Positions 13,530-32,966 of a DNA stretch of 34,580 bases are shown here, one piece after another. Position numbers and translations under genes: made by a program. Position 1 is the stretch's first letter, and each line of letters starts with the position of its first letter. The stretch lies in the IMG/VR virus record IMGVR_UViG_3300043446_005158, positions 1 to 34,580 of that record; one strand, given 5' to 3'. The notes below the pieces were generated by a model. The model was not told the origin of the DNA. It saw only the letters and a program-made list of their open reading frames with translations, and made no database searches. The DNA comes from a virus.

Positions 13530-13711
13530 AGCGGCTGAAGCCAACACTCCAACAGGTTGGCGATAAGGGCGGCTCTGTAGCTTAACATTCGAGCCATTTC
13601 TCTGGTTATCAAATCTCCGAGGGGAGACTCTTCTTCATCCCAGCTAAAGGTTTTGGCGGAAGCACGCAGATCTGCGCAGCGTGCGATGTTATCCCAATCA
13701 ATTGAGTTCAT
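13526..13711 (-). CDS. Hypothetical protein, 61 aa
   Basis: Unrecognised. Overlaps the endolysin stop as ATGA (13708-13711) and the next gene as ATGA (13526-13529), so the three are translationally coupled. The N-terminus is acidic (MNSIDWDNIARCADLRASA, then FSWDEEESPLGDL); the C-terminal third is an Ala/Leu-rich helix (MLSYRAALIANLLECWLQPL) that is amphipathic rather than a clear membrane span. It may be a small regulatory or lysis-accessory protein; nothing specific can be shown. Confidence 0.65.
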   Translation of the reverse strand: MNSIDWDNIARCADLRASAKTFSWDEEESPLGDLITREMARMLSYRAALIANLLECWLQPL

Positions 13712-14946
13712 TTGAAAGCTCGAATAGCCCAGCCGCTCCCAGGGCCTTCCACGAGGAAGCGGGGGCCTAGGTTCTTCTTAGAGTAAAGCAGCCCTTTGCC
13801 GTTGGTGGAAACGTAACCGCCGTTAACAAGGTCTAACTCGCCGAAGGGATCGTTCACAACGTACCTTGTATTGTCCTCGTTGCGACCGACAATCACGATC
13901 CAGTGACCACCGCCTGTAGGAGCGCTGACAGGTCCGTGATGAAGAATACCAATAGGAACAGGGATACCGCGCACCAACTGGGAATCGATATCACTCCAAC
14001 CGAAGTCCTGGCAAAACTCAGCTTTCAACCCGTAAGAAGAGAGCGCAGAAAGCTGAGCGGCAGCAGACGTTGTATCTCCGTACTTGTATACAGTTTTAAT
14101 GTACTGATCGTCTCCAGAAATACTGTTGGGTTTGAGAAATTTTAAAAGCATGGCGCAACTGCTGGAGAAGCAAGTGCGCAGAGGGTCTGTTTGATTATCC
14201 CGCTGGCTGTAATAGGGAACCGAAAGAACTAAGGGCTGAGGGTGAGTTACCGTCTCGTCTTCGACTGGAGCGGGGTCATTGATGATTTTGAAATCATTGG
14301 GCCACATCCACCACGAGCGGTCAGGCTGAGCCTCCAGAGTCAGCTTGTAGTGCTTCTCGCCGGGAACCATCGTGATGGCCTGCCAGCGGTGTGCTGAGCC
14401 CTTAGGGACGAAAAGCTTTTGTTCGGCCGCCAGGTCAGAGGCTTGCTTGGGCTCCCGCTTTAGCCAGGTGTCCCGCTGGGCAAGGATAGAAGCAGACAAG
14501 AGCGGATGCAAAACCTTGGTTAAAAATAGCTCGCGCTCAGCTTCTCGGCGATTTTTTAAGCCTTCGATAACCTTTCCGTCGACTTTAGTCCAACGGAGAA
14601 ACTCAGATGCGACAACAGATGCCTCAGCACCATCGTTCAGTAAACGTAAAAGGGTAGACCCTTTGAAAGCTCCTATACCTACGTTGTAAGAAAAGCTGAC
14701 CAGAGCATCAAATTGATTTTGATTGACCGAAACCCTAAGAAGGTTATGGACGCCGTCAGCAAACTTGTTGACACTCTCCTGAAGCCACGTGTCGGCTTGG
14801 GCTTGAGTGATTGTTAGTTTAGGGCCGACGTGAGGACCAGTCGTACCCCAGCCAATTGTCCAGACGCCGCCAATATCTTGATAAGAAGTTAGCTCACAAC
14901 CCTCAAAACGCTTGATTAAATCAAGACCTTTGGCGGAAACGTTCAC
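13708..14946 (-). CDS. Two-domain endolysin: GH24 lysozyme plus C39-like cysteine peptidase
   Basis: Cell-wall lytic enzyme, 412 aa. Residues 5-145 are a T4/lambdoid-type GH24 muramidase. RFEGCELTSYQD gives catalytic Glu15 and Asp24, with Thr30 in GGVWTIGWG, in the usual E-8-D-5-T spacing; the SFSYNVG and LKNRREAE segments also fit. A middle region (about 165-225) containing KLFVPKGSAHRW and WWMWPNDFK may bind the wall. Residues about 238-400 resemble Peptidase_C39_2: SVPYYSQ (Gln248), CFSSSCAMLLKFL (Cys259), GGGHWIVIVG (His348) and VVNDPFGE (Asp366), a plausible Cys-His-Asp set. No signal peptide, so a holin is required; one is suggested at 16071. Fusion of lysozyme with a C39-type domain is uncommon in my knowledge. 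Confidence 0.88.
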   Translation of the reverse strand: MNVSAKGLDLIKRFEGCELTSYQDIGGVWTIGWGTTGPHVGPKLTITQAQADTWLQESVNKFADGVHNLLRVSVNQNQFDALVSFSYNVGIGAFKGSTLLRLLNDGAEASVVASEFLRWTKVDGKVIEGLKNRREAERELFLTKVLHPLLSASILAQRDTWLKREPKQASDLAAEQKLFVPKGSAHRWQAITMVPGEKHYKLTLEAQPDRSWWMWPNDFKIINDPAPVEDETVTHPQPLVLSVPYYSQRDNQTDPLRTCFSSSCAMLLKFLKPNSISGDDQYIKTVYKYGDTTSAAAQLSALSSYGLKAEFCQDFGWSDIDSQLVRGIPVPIGILHHGPVSAPTGGGHWIVIVGRNEDNTRYVVNDPFGELDLVNGGYVSTNGKGLLYSKKNLGPRFLVEGPGSGWAIRAFK

Positions 14947-16663: not shown

Positions 16664-17023
16664 TCAAACTTGAATTAAATCGGGCAAATATCGATCAAGA
16701 GTGAGAATGTGCTTAGAGGCCGCTTCAAAAGTTTCAGCCAAAAACAAACAAGCCAGCTCAGGATCCGTTGTATCCCCGCAGGTAAACACATCGACGGCGG
16801 CGTATCCGTGCTCGGGCCACGTGTGGATCGAAATGTGAGACTCGGCGAGCAGCGCAAAACCGGTGACGCCCTGAGGGGTGAACGGATGGGTTCGGATATC
16901 AATTAAAGTCGCATGGGATACGCGGGCGGCCTCAGCCAAAGCATCGCGAATGAAAGCTTCGTCGTTAAGTTTTTGCGCAGAGGCGCGGTAAAGCTCCAGA
17001 ACACAATGCTTGCCGCAGCCCAT
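16664..17023 (-). CDS. speD: S-adenosylmethionine decarboxylase proenzyme
   Basis: Host-derived metabolic gene: decarboxylates S-adenosylmethionine to supply the aminopropyl group for spermidine. The 119-residue length is right for the bacterial proenzyme. LLAESHISIHTWPE places the self-cleavage site at Glu61-Ser62 (Ser62 becomes the pyruvoyl group), with His67 and Cys82 (DVFTCGD) at the spacing known for the Thermotoga enzyme (63, 68, 83). The ATG begins MGCGKHCVLELY, typical of the family. speD is known in some T4-like marine cyanophages; polyamines help neutralise packaged DNA. It stands alone here without other polyamine genes, next to an HNH gene and divergent from a glycosyltransferase, which suggests insertion as single-gene cargo. 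Confidence 0.95.
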   Translation of the reverse strand: MGCGKHCVLELYRASAQKLNDEAFIRDALAEAARVSHATLIDIRTHPFTPQGVTGFALLAESHISIHTWPEHGYAAVDVFTCGDTTDPELACLFLAETFEAASKHILTLDRYLPDLIQV

Positions 17024-26771: not shown

Positions 26772-27297
26772 TGTATGTATATAGTTGCTTCATGGATTCC
26801 ACGTCGCTCGTAACTGTAGGCGGATTACTCGCGTAGGACATAAACGTCTGATTAAGCAGATTATTAAAGGCAGGATCTTCCGCTATTTTTTGGAACTGTG
26901 TGATGGGTGCAGATAACGCTGCGTATAACCGAGCACTTCCGGCTTGACTTGCTTGGTTCAGTCGATTGGTGTAATCGCTCAAACTCGAAGACAACATACC
27001 TGCAAACCGTTTTGCTGATTGTGAAGCAAGTAAGTTCGGATCGTATTGAGCTAATTGTCGACTGTACTGGCTGCCGATATCACCGATCGTCTTGTAAAAA
27101 TCTTGCGAAAGTTGCGTAGTGGCCTTCTTAGGCCCCATCGGAGCCAGGTTGCTTATAGCTTGTTGTTGTTTATTCGCTCGTTTTTTTAATCTCTGATTTT
27201 GACGCCGTAAAGCAACGATAGTCCGCTTCTGAATATCGCGTGCGGTATTTACTGAAGCTTGAGCACGCTCAGCAGGACTAGGACCGAATAAACCCAT
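26764..27297 (-). CDS. Putative virion-associated helical protein
   Basis: 177 aa. Starts ATG overlapping the transglycosylase stop as TAATG. The N-terminus ([20 protein letters not shown]) resembles starts of phage internal or head-to-tail proteins. Basic helix (RRQNQRLKKRANKQQQAISN) and Gln/Ser-rich helices follow (YSRQLAQYDPNLLASQSAKRF, then LSDYTNRLNQASQAG). No membrane segment. Position after the transglycosylase fits an ejection or internal virion protein; support is contextual. Confidence 0.65.
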   Translation of the reverse strand: MGLFGPSPAERAQASVNTARDIQKRTIVALRRQNQRLKKRANKQQQAISNLAPMGPKKATTQLSQDFYKTIGDIGSQYSRQLAQYDPNLLASQSAKRFAGMLSSSLSDYTNRLNQASQAGSARLYAALSAPITQFQKIAEDPAFNNLLNQTFMSYASNPPTVTSDVESMKQLYTYNV

Positions 27298-28616
27298 TAT
27301 CCGAAAGGTGCTTGGCCTCGCTTAATTCTACCAGCAACAATATCTCTTATCCGCAGGATTTCTGGGCTAGCTGTAGAAGCTCCGGGATCAAAGAAGTCCA
27401 TAGAAATGTGAGGACCCGTAGCGCGACCTGTAGTCCCTTGTAAACCAAGAGGCGTGCCCGCCGCTAAACGCATACCGGGCTTTAGATTCGGATTGATTTC
27501 GTTAAAGTGAGCAATCAAGGTGTCGAAAGGTTTACCCTCAGGAGTAACACCTCGAAGCTCAACATAGTTACCGTACCCACGGCCGCCTGGACCTCGATTA
27601 GCGGCGTTAGGTTCGCGAACGACTTTTAAAACCTGAGCATTAAAAGGCGTCGCAAACATCGCGTTAGCCCCTCCCGCAAGCGCAAAATCCAAGCCAGGTT
27701 CGCCCGTGGCATCGACGGCAGAGGTGACAACAGCATTCGGATACGAAATACCTCCGCCAGTTTTAGCAAAACCTTGACCCGGTTTAGCCCCTGTCTGGGT
27801 ATTAACACCAGCAGCTTGCGCCGTCTGACTCACGGCCACGTCGTTGAGTGTTCGTTCAATCTGAGAAGCCTCTGCGTTATATGCCGTCTGCTGCTGCCTG
27901 AGCTCCAAGATGTTTTTAGCTAATGTTGATGGATCTAAACCTACTTGCTGCGTCGATTCGGCTAGCTTGCTGATCGACTGCGACTCCAGAACATCCGCTT
28001 CATCCTCGTAGCCGGCATCCGCCAATTCAGCGGCACGGTTTTGGAGCTGTATAGCTTCGGCTGCGCTGGTTGGTGTCCCCAAACCTTCGACAGCTGAACG
28101 CAGCAGCAGACCTTTCAAAGCGCCGCGAAGGTCGAATCGGGGAAGTTGAATGCGTTGCGCGGCATTAGCAGGAGCTGGAACAGGGGCTGGAGTTTGCGCC
28201 GGGCCGCGGGGAGCCATCATGCCCCCCGTAGGAACAGCGGTCCCGCCTAAAATTTTGGTTACGTAATTTCTCGTCTCTTTAAAAGGCGGAATACCCCCGT
28301 ATCTTTCCACGTTGCCGGGGCCTGCGTTATACGCAGCCAGAGCTTTGGGATACGACCCGAAACGTTTTAATTGCTGACTGAGGTACCTAGCACTTCCTGT
28401 TATGTTTTGAACCGGGTCTGACGGATCAGACACACCAAGGCCCCGAGCAGTCGCAGGCATCAACTGACCCAGTCCTTGCGCTCCGGCAGGACTAACAGCG
28501 GCGGGGTTCCACCCAGACTCTGTAGTTATAAGGCGCTCAAAAATAGCCGGATTAACACCAAAATCACGGGCTTTTTGCCTAGCGATTTGCTTAAGTTGCT
28601 CTGTGGTGTACGGCAT
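27297..28616 (-). CDS. Virion lytic transglycosylase with degenerate M23-like domain
   Basis: 439 aa. Residues about 10-125 are a soluble lytic transglycosylase (SLT) domain: [20 protein letters not shown] with catalytic Glu33, [14 protein letters not shown], and [15 protein letters not shown] Pro/Ala linker and helical region (about 130-280) follow. Residues about 295-420 follow the M23 LytM layout ([41 protein letters not shown]). However, the HxGxD motif reads EPGLD, and the HxH motif reads HIS. Two zinc ligands are therefore changed, and peptidase activity is doubtful. Such proteins usually ride in the virion and open the cell wall during DNA entry. Confidence in the transglycosylase is high. 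Confidence 0.88.
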
Positions 28617-28685
28617 GTTTTAAATTGTCGCCTAGAAGATGAGAACCGCAGGGATATGATCCGCTAATTTTAGTTTAATCTTTGC

Positions 28686-28940
28686 TCAACTTTCTTTCAG
28701 TTCTTCGTCATCAAATAACTTCATATTTGTATCCACGGCGATACCTACTTCGGCCATTACGGTTTTGTACGCCCTTTCTCGGCAAATCAACTTAAACACT
28801 TTATCCCAGAGATAATTATCGCGATCCTTACTATGCAATGTGTGAGCTTTAGTACGAATGCGTGTAAGTACGAACTCGTCTTCTAGCGTCAAACCGCAGG
28901 CTAAGTTCCCTGTGTGCTCCGAATCACGCTTGGAGGCCAT
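28686..28940 (-). CDS. Small helical protein, weakly NblA-like
   Basis: 84 aa. After a variable start (MASKRDSEHTGNLACG) it reads LTLEDEFVLTRIRTKAHTL, then KDRDNYLWDKVFKLICRERAYKTVMAEVG. The opening LTLEDEF followed by R and a second amphipathic helix with basic residues recalls NblA's LSLEQEF plus K/R-N-L-I helix, and the product at 5605-5853. The central similarity is poor and the terminal part differs, so I do not assign a function. It stands alone with AT-rich flanks, as accessory genes do. Confidence 0.55.
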   Translation of the reverse strand: MASKRDSEHTGNLACGLTLEDEFVLTRIRTKAHTLHSKDRDNYLWDKVFKLICRERAYKTVMAEVGIAVDTNMKLFDDEELKES

Positions 28941-29050
28941 GTGCCGGCTGCCGATACTCAGAGTCTAACTCCCAGTATCTCCGTATCACATTATTTCGAA
29001 AAATAGAAGCTTTCGTTATGCGCTATAAATAAAATGGAAACACATTGTAC

Positions 29051-29299
29051 TCACCATGACTTACAACTCCAGTAACCCGGAGTCAATTTGCTCTTCTTCT
29101 CGTCACAGCTATGACGCGAACGAAAAGCTCGGCGTCGATCTGGTTCGTTACTACGGTTTTCCATATCGGGATCACCAAAGCGCACTAAACGCACAGTGTC
29201 CCCTTCCTTGGCTGCCACGGAGAATTCTTTACCGCTCTGAACGTCTCGTTTGGGGACGTTGTAGTTTTTAAAAATTTCCCCAGCGATACGAATAGCCAT
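29051..29299 (-). CDS. Conserved phage-type basic protein, 82 aa
   Basis: Start ATG 29299 gives MAIRIAGEIFKNYNVPKRDV; a longer frame to 29353 is not needed. The C-terminal part VRFGDPDMENRSNEPDRR, AFRSRHSCDEKKSKLTPG, YWSCKSW follows a motif (FGDPxM...P..R..FraRH.Cd......yWsCkxW) that I recall in phage proteins next to structural genes; role uncertain, perhaps assembly. Two Cys plus His may bind metal. The + strand frame on the same bases is a shadow. Start codons here and of a 21-codon + frame form CATATG. Function open. Confidence 0.7.
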   Translation of the reverse strand: MAIRIAGEIFKNYNVPKRDVQSGKEFSVAAKEGDTVRLVRFGDPDMENRSNEPDRRRAFRSRHSCDEKKSKLTPGYWSCKSW

Positions 29300-29448
29300 A
29301 TGGACACAGAATCTAACAATATTGTAAATACTACAACGCTTCACACAGCTCAACAGAAACCTTAAGAGTACATGAACTCCTCCACACAGGACTACGCAGA
29401 GCAGAAAAAGCTCTATAGTGTCCTCTGTAATTCATCTTCTATATCGTC

Positions 29449-29715
29449 ATGCCTGACGACAAGAATCTTCTGACAATCGCAGAGACCGCTGAATTCCTGA
29501 ACTGCAGCTCTGGTTTTGTGCGCAAACGTATTGCTCTGACTGAGTCCAACCAACCCGGCGGATGGCCCAAGCAAATCTTCGTGAATTTGCAGCCTAATGG
29601 CGCCAAATCTCTGTATCGCGTGAATAAAAACGCACTCGAGGAGTACCTGAAGACTTCATCCGCCGCTAAAGTGGAAACTGCAGAGCCCGCACCTGCGGCT
29701 GCTTGCTCTTTCTGA
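29449..29715 (+). CDS. Excisionase-like HTH protein
   Basis: 88 aa. LTIAETAEFLNCSSGFVRKRIAL (8-30) is an HTH_17/MerR-type DNA-binding motif as in excisionases, followed by GGWPKQIFVNLQPNGAKSLYRVNKNALEEYLK, the usual wing and closing helix. The tail is Ala/Pro-rich. It probably binds DNA as a regulator or recombination directionality factor, but no integrase is seen in the window. It precedes the Dps-like gene by ten bases, so the two may be co-transcribed. TATAGT near 29411 is a candidate -10. Confidence 0.8.
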   Translation: MPDDKNLLTIAETAEFLNCSSGFVRKRIALTESNQPGGWPKQIFVNLQPNGAKSLYRVNKNALEEYLKTSSAAKVETAEPAPAAACSF

Positions 29716-29725
29716 TAACGAAAAA

Positions 29726-30265
29726 ATGACGTTCTCCGGTTCTTTCAGCACCACGTCTGCGCCGCAAGAGGCTCCTGAGCAGATGTTTGAAGAGCCGGAG
29801 ACGGGGGATGAGGAGAACAAGGCATCAGTCGAGGATTTAATTTCTGGACTGGTGTCTTTATCTTCTTATTTACATCAACTTTATGTTCAAAGCCATTTAC
29901 TCCATCTGAACGTCGAAGGTCCTCTGTTTCTACCGATTCATGAGTTCCTAAAAGAACAGTACGGAGCGCATATCGAGCAATTCGACCAGATCGCCGAATT
30001 CGTGCGCACAATGGATTTTCTAATGCCTATGTGTGAGCGCGGTTTGTTGAGCGCTTACAAAGGCTTTAAACATGTAAAAGCTTATGAAACCCGCGAAGGG
30101 CTTACTGTTTATCTGAAAAATCTAGAAACGTGTGGAATGACTTCCAAAGATCTGCAAAAGATTGCAAAGGAAGTCGATGCTCCGGATATTGAGAACTATT
30201 TGGCGGAACTTGTGGGGATGATGTTCAAGGCTTCGTGGTTCCTCAAGAGCACTTTGCGTCCTTAA
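29726..30265 (+). CDS. Dps-like ferritin superfamily protein
   Basis: 179 aa. Dps proteins form 12-mers that oxidise iron with hydrogen peroxide and store it, protecting DNA. The core SHLLHLNVEGPLFLPIHEFL (57-74), then YGAHIEQFDQIAEFVR (79-94), follows the Dps ferroxidase motif. His60, His72, Asp87 and Glu91 have exactly the spacing of E. coli H51, H63, D78 and E82 (12, 15, 4). Helix 1 (DLISGLVSLSSYLHQLYVQ) precedes them, and helices follow to MFKASWFLKSTLRP. An acidic N-terminal extension (about 1-34) replaces the Lys-rich DNA-binding tail of E. coli Dps. A virus-encoded Dps would shield phage DNA or handle iron during infection; the function is inferred. The last four bases overlap the convergent fibre gene. 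Confidence 0.85.
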   Translation: MTFSGSFSTTSAPQEAPEQMFEEPETGDEENKASVEDLISGLVSLSSYLHQLYVQSHLLHLNVEGPLFLPIHEFLKEQYGAHIEQFDQIAEFVRTMDFLMPMCERGLLSAYKGFKHVKAYETREGLTVYLKNLETCGMTSKDLQKIAKEVDAPDIENYLAELVGMMFKASWFLKSTLRP

Positions 30266-30873
30266 ACAAGGAGCCAAGTATCGGTGGCTCGAACGTACAG
30301 ACCGGCTGCAAAAACACCAGACGGCTGAACCTGATAAATCAGAGTTCCGGACGGGTTTAGAACGGGATTAGGAAGTCCGCTCAAAACCACCGTGGAACTC
30401 TGAATGGCTCCAGAAGCTAAAATTGCTCCAGAAGCTAAAGTTGCTGTATTCGAAAACAAAGCACCCGAAGCCAGAATCGTTCCAGAAGAAAGGGTAGCTG
30501 TAGAAGCCTGAGTCGCAAAGGTAGCTGTAGTTGCTGTGGTTGCAGTAGTAGCTGAATCCGCAAAGCCGGCACCTACCTTTTGCCAGGCGCCGCCAGTCCA
30601 GACTTTTAAGTAATAACTTCCTGTCGAACTATCTGTCCACAGCTCACCAACGGAGTTTCCGGCTAAACCAACAGGCGTGGAATTAGGTGCAGTTGTTCCG
30701 TAGTGCGAAGGACCGAGTTTTCGGATGCTACCCGCAGAGTCTTCGAAATATAGACCCGGATCTGCAGCGCCTACGGCGATAGCAAGTTCGCCGTTCTGAA
30801 CAACGCTAGTTTGAGGACGATCGGAAGACTGACCTGATCGTTTTAGGAGAAGGATAACGGGTGTTGACGTCAT
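30262..30873 (-). CDS. Tail fibre-type protein with Ala/Ser/Thr repeats
   Basis: 203 aa. The N-terminus VILLLKRSGQSSDRPQTSVV, QNGELAIAVGAADPGLYFED and GSIRKLGP follows the layout of phage fibre N-terminal domains (the major tropism determinant N-terminal family). ELWTDSSTGSYYLKVWTGGAW is a W-x-T...VW unit like those in the fibre at 21492. A repetitive stretch (about 110-165) is built from TATTAT(T/A) and (L/I)ASGA(L/I) units. The C-terminal part (PSGVFAAGLYVRATDTWLLV) is short. Likely a fibre shaft or adaptor. Convergent with the Dps-like gene. Confidence 0.75.
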   Translation of the reverse strand: MTSTPVILLLKRSGQSSDRPQTSVVQNGELAIAVGAADPGLYFEDSAGSIRKLGPSHYGTTAPNSTPVGLAGNSVGELWTDSSTGSYYLKVWTGGAWQKVGAGFADSATTATTATTATFATQASTATLSSGTILASGALFSNTATLASGAILASGAIQSSTVVLSGLPNPVLNPSGTLIYQVQPSGVFAAGLYVRATDTWLLV

Positions 30874-30902
30874 GCTTTAATGGGGCAGTTGTACTAAAGC
30901 TA

Positions 30903-31385
30903 ATGAACCATCCTCAAGGTGTTTGGGAGTACTTTGTAAATTCTGTAGACATAAAATCACCTGATAAATGCTGGGATTGGAAAAAAAGCACAGCTTCCTC
31001 CGGTTATGGTAACTGGTATTGGAAGAAAAAAGCAGGAGGTGCGCATAGGGAATCTTTTAAGCTGTTTTGTGCGTTCGACCCTAAACTTTATGTTCTCCAC
31101 AGGTGTGGAAATAGGAGATGCTGCAACCCAGAGCACTTATATGTTGGAACACAGAAAGAAAACACGTTAGATACAAAAAAACACGGAACGTACGCTCCGC
31201 CTCCTTATAAACGAGGGGAAGACGTAGGAACCAGCAAATTGACAAAAGAACAAGTTTATAGAATTAAAGTAGAACTTAAACACAATACAAAATCTTTAAA
31301 ACAGTTAGCAGAACAATATGGCGTAACAATCCAGTGTATATATTTAATAAAAACAGAAAAAAATTGGAGATGGCTGAAAGTATGA
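30903..31385 (+). CDS. HNH homing endonuclease with C-terminal HTH
   Basis: 160 aa from ATG 30903 (a longer frame from 30861 overlaps the fibre start). The HNH_3 fold is intact: CWDWKKSTASSGYGNWYW, then AHRESFKLF and YVLHRCGNRRCCNPEHLYVG, with catalytic His, zinc Cys residues and the N-P-x-H ending. KLTKEQVYRIKVELKHN with SLKQLAEQYGVTIQCIYLI forms the C-terminal HTH that reads DNA. The gene is far more AT-rich than its neighbours. Its stop touches the convergent stop of the large virion protein (31385/31386). Features are those of a mobile endonuclease. It gives the intact reference for the degenerate HNH trio. Confidence 0.92.
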   Translation: MNHPQGVWEYFVNSVDIKSPDKCWDWKKSTASSGYGNWYWKKKAGGAHRESFKLFCAFDPKLYVLHRCGNRRCCNPEHLYVGTQKENTLDTKKHGTYAPPPYKRGEDVGTSKLTKEQVYRIKVELKHNTKSLKQLAEQYGVTIQCIYLIKTEKNWRWLKV

Positions 31386-32966
31386 TCAAACAAAACAAGA
31401 ATAAAAAATATCAGTAAGTAAAAATAAGATAAAAACAAATACACCACCATTAATTAAAGAAGGGAAACCAGCCGGAGGAACTACAACCCCATTCAAATAC
31501 TGACCGCCATCAAACACGTTTGTAGGTTGATTAACCAGAACACCGTTTGCATATGTCCCGCCATCATACGTCCCGACAACAAAAGATGCGGGATCGAAAG
31601 GGTTGAACTCATCGATCGTAAACATCTCGAAACTTGCGCCCTGCAAAGTATTCGGTCCCGATAAATCTCCGGCATTGAGCGTCTTTGTCATCATGTTGTA
31701 CATATCCGGGTACATCATGTGCGTCGGCATATCGTCCTTAGCCGGGCTATATCGCTGCCACCAGACCAAATCTTTCTCACGCTTCAGAAATGTGGTCTGT
31801 CGTTCTAATTCTTTTTCGAAATACTCTCTGTAATACTCGTTCAGAGGTTCGTCTGTTGGTTGCGGTAACCACGGTCCGGTGACTACGCCTTGATCGTATG
31901 CGCGCTGGAGATCCCACATTGCGGCGTAAATATGCTTACACCACTTTGGTTGGTAGTAGAAAAAGTTAGGATCCGAGTATGTCGCTTCAGAAAAACTAGG
32001 GATATTGTATATCTGATTAATATAAATAAAACCAAATGTTCTAACGAAACCAGGGTTATCAGACGAAGGCACAACACGAGGCGATCCGTCAACACCCGCG
32101 TCAAAATAACCAGGATCAAAGTTCTGCGGGCGTGTACGCGGATACTTACGGCGAATTGACGCGTCGTACAGATTAAAATTTTCGCGAGCTAAAAAGTCGG
32201 AACAGGTACACTGAGACCGCATCTCCGTTGTCAGATATTCTCCAACCGCCGGAGGCCCGGTGGCGGGGATGGCTAATGTATTTTCATCGACAACGGCCCA
32301 GCTTGTGTTATCTGTATGAGATAAAAACAAAGTATTGAATATAGGAGCATATGACGGAGTTACAGGCACATTATCGATGCCCACGGCTGTGACCGTGTAG
32401 TTGTTAAATCCGTACTGTTTATCTGTACCGTCTGCGTTGAATCTATTAGATAAAACTTCGCCAGTAAAGAAAGAAATAGGAGCCCCAAAAGTGGAGCTTA
32501 GTTTCACGGCATACGTGTTTGCGTCGTAATCTGTTACAGAAACAATCGAGTAACCAAAGTTCAAGAAATTAAACGAATCCCGAGGGCGAATGCCAACCAT
32601 GTGCATACGCATATCCGTCCGCGTGGTCGGATACATGAAACACATACCGGGTAGAAACACACCCAGTCCAGGAGTACCGGATACAAAATACTTAAATGAA
32701 TAAGTTAAACCTCCGTACGCTTGCTGAGAATACATACTCAGCTCATACCCGCGGCGCCAACGAACCCAAAGCGATGCGTAGTCGTACTCGCTTGTAAGAC
32801 TAAAATCTTTGGTATTTAAAGCTGGCCTAAAGCGACGTTTAAACGGTAACGGAGAATTGAGCTCCTTGATGTTGTCGGAGCCCTTTACTGTCTTCGGTAA
32901 CTCAGCAGGATTTGTAGCCTTGAAAGACTTGAAGTTAAAATCGTCTGACCCGCGTCTACGTGACAC
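31386..32966 (-). CDS. Large virion-type protein with SWIM zinc-finger motif
   Basis: 526 aa, probably structural. The first 60 residues are basic and extended. A beta-rich domain follows (about 60-240; TYSFKYFVSG, VGIRPRDSF, IVSVTDYDAN). C253 and C255 (CTCSDFLARENF) pair with C343 and H345 (WCKHIYAAMWDLQ) in the order CxC...CxH of SWIM fingers, with about 87 residues inserted between. Then a helical, charged region (YYREYFEKELERQTTFLKRE) and C-terminal Gly repeats (VGTYDGGTYANGV, NVFDGGQYLNGV, and SLINGGVF). The final 20 residues (VFILFLLTDIFYSCFV) are hydrophobic and AT-rich in coding. It starts three bases after the neighbouring gene's stop. Confidence 0.75.
   Translation of the reverse strand: MSRRRGSDDFNFKSFKATNPAELPKTVKGSDNIKELNSPLPFKRRFRPALNTKDFSLTSEYDYASLWVRWRRGYELSMYSQQAYGGLTYSFKYFVSGTPGLGVFLPGMCFMYPTTRTDMRMHMVGIRPRDSFNFLNFGYSIVSVTDYDANTYAVKLSSTFGAPISFFTGEVLSNRFNADGTDKQYGFNNYTVTAVGIDNVPVTPSYAPIFNTLFLSHTDNTSWAVVDENTLAIPATGPPAVGEYLTTEMRSQCTCSDFLARENFNLYDASIRRKYPRTRPQNFDPGYFDAGVDGSPRVVPSSDNPGFVRTFGFIYINQIYNIPSFSEATYSDPNFFYYQPKWCKHIYAAMWDLQRAYDQGVVTGPWLPQPTDEPLNEYYREYFEKELERQTTFLKREKDLVWWQRYSPAKDDMPTHMMYPDMYNMMTKTLNAGDLSGPNTLQGASFEMFTIDEFNPFDPASFVVGTYDGGTYANGVLVNQPTNVFDGGQYLNGVVVPPAGFPSLINGGVFVFILFLLTDIFYSCFV

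Follow-up and report, generated by a model that had tools for sequence, protein, structure and literature searches.

A virus-only branch of Dps-family miniferritins with an altered ferroxidase centre

The dps gene considered here lies at positions 29726-30265 (+) of IMG/VR virus record IMGVR_UViG_3300043446_005158, the whole of which (34,580 bases, itself a fragment) was analysed and is called the window below. The gene encodes a Dps-family miniferritin of 179 amino acids (aa), and our comparisons placed it in a large, virus-only branch of that family in which the ferroxidase centre is consistently altered and the gene has a conserved helix-turn-helix (HTH) partner, a combination that is new as far as our searches go. 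The reading we favour, at a probability of roughly 0.55, is that the branch is a Dps subfamily peculiar to phages whose intersubunit ferroxidase centre is modified and which probably sequesters Fe(II) as a guard against Fenton damage, instead of coating DNA by means of a basic tail, with an activity and an oligomeric state that we infer. One lineage has kept dps through deep divergence, its iron site changed alike in every member compared.

The gene, its branch and its iron site

An earlier note on this DNA, made from the letters alone, had proposed a Dps-type ferritin in a phage and had staked that proposal on a four-helix ferritin fold and on similarity to Dps in profile searches, all of which held. 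The open reading frame (ORF) starts with ATG and its boundaries are exactly those given above. Pfam PF00210 (Ferritin) matched the protein at an E value of 6e-10 and 39.6 bits (40 bits in a second run), above the gathering cut-off of 24.5, and PHROG 3636, a phage family labelled ‘DNA binding protein’, matched it at 8.3e-26. The top PDB matches were Dps-family chains, 8ff9 at 2e-8 from the single sequence and 3kwo at 5e-13 from a profile, and E. coli Dps was reached in a profile search at 4e-5. The NCBIfam Dps equivalogs NF052461, NF041388 and NF006975 were not reached (24.9/300, 22.2/170 and 22.0/114 bits, respectively).

A monomer model from AlphaFold2 (AF2), with a mean predicted local distance difference test score (pLDDT) of 81.5, had helices at residues 35-62, 68-94, 104-110, 122-149 and 153-177, i.e., a four-helix bundle plus a short BC helix (104-110). 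The latter counts for membership of the Dps family, since such a helix is given as a trait of Dps in a passage of PMC11150526. In VIA, the model aligned with the Dps of Thermosynechococcus elongatus (2c41) at Z 20.6 and a root-mean-square deviation of 1.7 over 145 residues, and most of the 50 structure matches listed were Dps, in a list whose omission of a fold family does not exclude that family. The window ORF is a genuine gene under selection. Across seven pairings with relatives 71-90% identical, synonymous change was at or near saturation and the nonsynonymous rate (dN) was 0.06-0.22, and in the three of them for which a whole-gene synonymous rate (dS) was estimable, dN/dS was 0.029, 0.038 and 0.041. 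Strong purifying selection on dps is shown by this computation.

The viral side of the comparison was drawn from virus contigs. A profile-guided scan returned 502 candidate stretches, 359 of them encoding a relative, and the 80 fetched from these, joined to 40 loci from a first scan, gave 120 loci with 73 different proteins, many contigs being present twice. With two proteins shorter than 150 aa (L041 and L111) dropped beforehand, 48 loci were kept at <93% identity, and together with the window and Synechococcus phage S-EIV1 these made the 50 rows of the clade set. On the bacterial side, a first scan of genome contigs yielded 145 candidate stretches and no relatives; a second, with two short patterns that admitted bacterial Dps, yielded at least 589 stretches and at least 450 relatives, the best 80 of which were 23-31% identical to the window protein with one exception (41% over residues 34-102). 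These 80, and six from 267 plasmid records, form a panel of 86 rows that is biased, and the bacterial Trp and Glu counts given below hold for that panel.

In a tree of the 50 phage and 86 bacterial rows, the viral rows formed one side of a branch with a support of 100/100 and a length of 3.85. The tree was rooted at its midpoint, and an end branch that is longer still (4.5) belongs to a bacterial row, L191, so the tree shows separation and not a dated origin. Recent acquisition from a host is unsupported, given the 100/100 branch and no close bacterial relative in the genome-contig scans (best 80 of at least 450). Among relatives longer than 45 kb that were reached via primase or terminase, eight of ten carried Dps, the exceptions being records G020 (82 kb) and G067 (49 kb); across all sizes it was present in 5/27 records reached by primase and in 7/14 reached by terminase (the records >20 kb among 80), figures in which absence proves little, the virus records being all classed linear and often fragments.

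The ferroxidase-centre segment spans residues 57-91 (29894-29998, +) and includes His57, His60, Leu61, His72, Lys76, His82, Asp87 and Glu91, with ligand positions judged by their place in the sequence and at the level of the monomer. His60, His72, Asp87 and Glu91 stand at the spacing of Dps, as the earlier note had seen, and the stretch from His72 to Asp87 aligns without gaps to known Dps. The equivalents of these four residues and of His57 were unchanged in 50/50 phage rows, over which mean column identity is ~55%, and in 86/86 bacterial rows. The further claim of that note, that the motif is complete and intact, is right for the four core ligands and fails at two other places, in both of which the canonical residue is lost in all 50 phage rows. 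One is position 76, four residues past the second His and equivalent to E. coli Asp67 and HP-NAP Glu41, the place of the canonical site-B acid. It is Lys in the window protein (codon 29951-29953, +) and in 43 rows of the clade, the remainder having Gly (3), Asn (2), Gln (1) or Arg (1), so that none of the 50 is acidic, versus Glu in 78 and Met in eight of the bacterial rows. The other is position 61, next to the first His, where the phage rows have Leu (47), Phe (2) or Ile (1) and the bacterial rows have Trp (86/86). In addition, position 92 is Phe, Leu or Tyr in every phage row versus Arg in every bacterial one. By the canonical standard, the iron site falls short of ‘complete’, both the site-B acid and the Trp being gone. 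A separate feature is Cys103 (30032-30034), just before the BC helix, which is present in 50/50 phage rows and 0/86 bacterial rows and for which a disulfide or redox role is possible.

Described Dps proteins give some measure of these changes. According to passages of PMC4192664, the four HP-NAP equivalents of His60, His72, Asp87 and Glu91 bind metal, HP-NAP His22 (His57 here) pairs with Asp52 by a salt bridge when iron is absent, and the conserved Trp beside the first His has a role in that protein. Position 67 of the E. coli numbering is normally Glu or Asp and acts at site B via water in canonical centres, as parts of PMC6675082 describe, and the low-affinity site of E. coli Dps is given as Lys48, Asp67 and Asp78 in a section of PMC9140674. 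NpDps4, with Asn at 67, can bind a pair of Fe ions and uses O2 to oxidise Fe(II), and the passages of PMC6675082 on it offer no evidence for use of H2O2; since this protein still oxidises Fe(II), losing the site-B acid need not kill the centre. A non-acidic site-B residue, Lys or other, combined with the loss of the switching Trp suggests that the phage centre is probably not a canonical H2O2-tuned di-iron site, and its rate or oxidant preference should probably differ from the canonical one.

Two other kinds of centre were considered and rejected. The His-type centre has His at position 78 (PMC6675082, in the part consulted here), where Asp87 stands in 50/50 rows of the clade. The DpsL type has a buried, bacterioferritin-type centre with ExxH on helices B and D, as defined by the PaDpsL ligand set in passages of PMC11150526; the window protein contains no E..H, and a single E..H each occurs in two other clade rows (L096 and S-EIV1).

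On the favoured reading, the phage protein would assemble as a 12-mer and take up Fe(II), which would be bound mainly at site A of the dimer interface, then oxidised and stored, and phage DNA or the infected cell would thereby suffer less Fenton damage. The N-terminal tail of E. coli Dps is Lys/Arg-rich and coats DNA. No such tail was found in the window protein, whose residues 1-35 (29726-29830, +) are mostly of low pLDDT (<50 at residues 1-29) and contain one K/R versus eight D/E, for a net charge of -7. Tails are net negative in 45 of the 50 clade rows, and the five that are net positive (+1 to +3) all come from the S-EIV1 group of the tree, being those of S-EIV1 itself and of four of its five fellow members; the acidic tail in place of a basic one that the earlier note had described is right for the branch of the window and wrong for S-EIV1 and these four close relatives, whose tails are slightly basic. 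It is unlikely that members of this branch coat DNA by means of a basic tail. The tail is also unevenly conserved, with a mean share of the commonest residue of 0.63 over residues 1-7 (MTFSGSF-like), 0.34 over residues 8-33 and 0.72 over residues 36-179. No other ATG-started ORF of at least 50 aa in the window, in relative L121 or in the fetched pieces of S-EIV1 has an MTFSGSF-like start.

The HTH partner, the neighbourhood and the phage

The first gene of the HTH-dps pair, at 29449-29715 (+), encodes an HTH_17/MerR-like DNA-binding protein of 88 aa and ends 10 bases before the start of dps. Pfam HTH_17 matched this protein at 5e-5 and 23.9 bits, below the cut-off of 27, and a PHROG excisionase match had an E value of 0.009. 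Its AF2 model (mean pLDDT 73.4) matched BldC (Z 6.9) and Pukovnik Xis (Z 6.6) equally weakly in VIA and also resembles terminase-small-subunit-like structures (7lw0, Z 6.6; 1j9i, Z 4.5), all scores being <8. In 42/48 loci, dps is immediately preceded by an HTH gene, with 1-11 bases between the two (69 at one locus). Five of the six loci without it are from the S-EIV1 group, including L039 with only 830 bases upstream, and the sixth, L118, has only 107 bases upstream. When loci were instead anchored on the HTH protein, in two scans with overlapping contigs (80 of 139 and 80 of 131 relatives), Dps was present within the fetched DNA at 158 of 159 loci. The earlier note had called the adjoining HTH protein excisionase-like. 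Its place directly upstream stood; the excisionase label rests on the sub-threshold HTH_17 score and the PHROG match, and an excisionase role is unlikely given the rarity of recombinases, integrase PF00589 being found in 1/18 hand-picked large relatives and resolvase PF00239 in 0/19. This scarcity speaks for a regulator over an excisionase, and the most likely role of the HTH protein is in transcriptional control, possibly of the HTH-dps unit itself.

The HTH-dps unit is transcribed opposite to the neighbouring structural genes. The convergent neighbour at 30262-30873 (-) is minor-tail-protein-like (phrog_356, 6e-19), belongs to a family (F1) present in 43/50 loci, and has a stop codon that overlaps that of dps (TTAA, 30262-30265). 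Upstream of the HTH gene, and separated from it by the intergenic stretch 29354-29448, the divergent neighbour at 29051-29353 (-) matches phrog_7595 (2e-16), which has no assigned function, and its family (F13) was called in 31/50 loci. An HNH endonuclease (30861-31385, +; phrog_1872, 2e-25) sits between two tail-block genes and is likely a mobile insertion: L121, with a Dps 99% identical to that of the window, lacks the gene at this place, and members of the family are present at 9/50 loci. Near the Dps unit, the gene at 27297-28616 (-) encodes a 439-aa protein with SLT transglycosylase and M23 peptidase domains, and farther off a 412-aa protein (13708-14946, -) combines phage lysozyme and C39-like cysteine peptidase domains.

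The kinship of the phage is with S-EIV1. Fifteen ORFs of the window matched that genome in tblastn (two of them overlap on opposite strands), S-EIV1 was the sole record found by the window Dps among 50,697 phage records at E <=0.01 (51% identity), and a second clade member used as query also retrieved S-EIV1 alone. The S-EIV1 terminase matched 30/42 records, nearly all of which had been chosen for carrying Dps. The host is probably cyanobacterial, by analogy with S-EIV1 and on that kinship only; the light-driven host proposed in the earlier note is therefore plausible, whereas psbA was found in 0/19 large related records, S-EIV1 included.

Several observations on these phages stand apart from dps. 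An S-adenosylmethionine decarboxylase, possibly a polyamine gene, is encoded at 16664-17023 (-) of the window (PF02675, 5e-39) and is common to S-EIV1. The large terminase subunit (TerL) of S-EIV1 (L151:15081-17618, 846 aa) contains an intein (Pfam Intein_splicing, 1.4e-11), as does that of G043 (L157:1501-4032, 1.8e-12). The terminase of G040 (L160) has a LAGLIDADG-type insert, and there the match is broken elsewhere, at query residues ~80-100. In relatives of the window such as G003, the terminase is uninterrupted, at ~506-513 aa. Directly after the S-EIV1 Dps, AHV82152 (L042:20477-21943) is labelled sulfate adenylyltransferase and had no match in Pfam (E <=0.05) or NCBIfam (E <=1), so that the label is doubtful.

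Weighing the readings

A number of observations count against a phage-specific, iron-sequestering Dps. Buried-centre Dps-like and mini-bacterioferritin chains scored almost as well as Dps in VIA (2vzb, Z 19.6; 9qq5, Z 19.2), so the fold by itself leaves the kind of iron site undecided. Alignment A2, of the 50 rows, has 25 invariant columns, which means that invariance is not peculiar to the ligands and is weak evidence alone. Site B could be blocked by Lys76, with turnover abolished. As to the partnership with the HTH gene, no such gene was found within 2.5 kb upstream of Dps in S-EIV1, and G020 keeps the HTH gene and the flanks without Dps: its tail-gene neighbour stops at 966, the HTH gene (67% identical) follows at 980-1243 on the opposite strand, and neither the space between them nor the rest of the record contains a Dps. 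Dps thus appears to be dispensable, having been lost or never gained without disturbing the neighbours, and the HTH protein is not tied solely to it. Finally, no sigma-70-like promoters were found in 28600-31400, versus 3.5 expected by shuffling.

An alternative in line with the earlier note is an ordinary, fully canonical Dps, i.e., a host-derived auxiliary stress gene working like E. coli or Listeria Dps. It draws support from the four core ligands and from the lead of Dps among the matches in profile, PDB and structure searches alike, and loss of the acid alone does occur in cells, as the eight bacterial Dps with Met at 76 and one PDB match with Gln there (5lbh) demonstrate. Nevertheless, it is unlikely, as all 50 phage rows are altered at 76 and 61, lack Arg92 and carry a Cys103 that no bacterial row has, and the bacterial loci are as distant, and the viral branch as long, as reported above. 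We give somewhat less credence to a virion or packaging protein, a dodecamer in the capsid that would protect packaged DNA or deliver an iron sink at infection and whose catalysis may be secondary. For phage Privateer, a passage of PMC7881722 has a Dps-family protein detected with purified virions, although contaminants are possible in such preparations, and that protein is outside our tree, was not found by the window protein, differs at the clade-diagnostic positions and adjoins thioredoxin, nucleotide and replication genes. The location of dps, flanked by genes of tail and lysis type and, in L121, ~8 kb from a major-head-like gene, would suit a virion protein, as would the conserved N-terminal heptapeptide, which on its variable linker could be a docking signal, but Dps and the HTH gene are transcribed against the adjoining structural genes. 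Phage proteins in BFVD that are named ‘prohead protease’ match the window Dps model and also lend it some support. In three of these entries (A0A6J7WPK9, 763 aa; A0A6J7XDU5, 333 aa; A0A6J7WIS1, 432 aa), it is a stretch of the protein that matches, and these are possible fusions of Dps and capsid protease.

More speculative again, and on our estimate improbable, is a virus-only Dps class in which the amine of Lys76 at site B would tune a mononuclear ferroxidase at site A to O2 or some other oxidant, and in which the shells would be docked to or packed in the virion via the N-terminal peptide; if so, an iron-handling nanocage would be part of the infection apparatus of the phage. Least probable of all is a dead centre, in which the shell would be kept for structure, for binding DNA or another partner or for storing another metal, with no oxidation of iron. 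The missing site-B acid and Trp would agree with it, and a Deinococcus Dps without ferroxidase residues binds DNA according to a section of PMC9820295. Yet the four core ligands and His57 have stayed unchanged in a set of 50 rows as diverged as this one, where drift would be expected, an objection that is itself weakened by the other invariant columns. A lineage whose iron site is changed alike throughout allows a direct test of whether a virus supplies iron and peroxide chemistry of its own during infection and how much change a Dps centre tolerates. Sequence data already provide natural members with different residues at 76, namely Lys, Gly (S-EIV1, L037 and L053), Asn (L076 and L095), Gln (L114) and Arg (L118), and an isolated phage, S-EIV1, has a member of the clade.

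Comparison with known Dps proteins

Phage-encoded Dps is already known and widespread, and the S-EIV1 homologue is already annotated as ferritin-like. Two bacterial Dps queries matched 168 and 211 phage records, cyanophage S-SRM01 among them, in overlapping lists that contain duplicate accessions and short phage-named records resembling host DNA. Most of the phage Dps genes matched are labelled as DNA-binding or hypothetical proteins. Among the papers listed by searches of open-licence literature, none described the iron site of this clade, and no paper in that literature names both ‘S-EIV1’ and ‘ferritin’. A ferritin-like protein of Pithovirus, mentioned in a passage of PMC9611531, led nowhere, and two other papers proved irrelevant from the parts that had matched, DP being a decoration protein in PMC12796354 and DPS a sequencing method in PMC7368026.

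Eight Dps of other phages were hand-picked from the matches (S-SRM01, Privateer, Salmonella 7-11, Iacchus, Evy, BUCT695, EK010 and BS162P1). As in the clade of the window, all eight keep the His, His, Asp and Glu ligands; unlike that clade, all eight keep the Trp, and seven keep the acid at 76 (Gly in S-SRM01). The altered site therefore belongs to the clade of the window and not to phage Dps generally. The Dps of S-SRM01 (L274:2528-2962), with Gly at 76 and Trp for His at 57, has another noncanonical centre and falls outside the clade by its other residues.

The closest named relative of the window protein is S-EIV1 AHV82153 (KJ410740), annotated ‘DNA-binding ferritin-like protein’, which is of the same clade, is 51% identical over 87% of the query and has the same core ligands. 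It is unlike the window protein in its Gly at 76, its slightly basic, proline-rich tail, its lack of an upstream HTH gene within 2.5 kb and its different neighbours. Listeria Dps, HP-NAP, Bacillus MrgA and Thermosynechococcus Dps are alike in fold (VIA Z 18.6-20.6), and canonical Dps, including that of E. coli, have the His, His, Asp and Glu ligands in common with the phage protein, but with Asp or Glu at 67 and Trp beside the first His where the latter has Lys, Leu and an acidic tail. The cyanobacterial His-type Dps NpDps4 and TeDpsA were also matched by the model (5hjf/5hjh, Z 19.5/19.3, and 2vxx, Z 19.2). NpDps4 resembles the phage protein in having a non-acidic residue (Asn) at 67 and a noncanonical centre, as parts of PMC6675082 describe, and differs from it in that His78 replaces the Asp, which the phage protein retains as Asp87.
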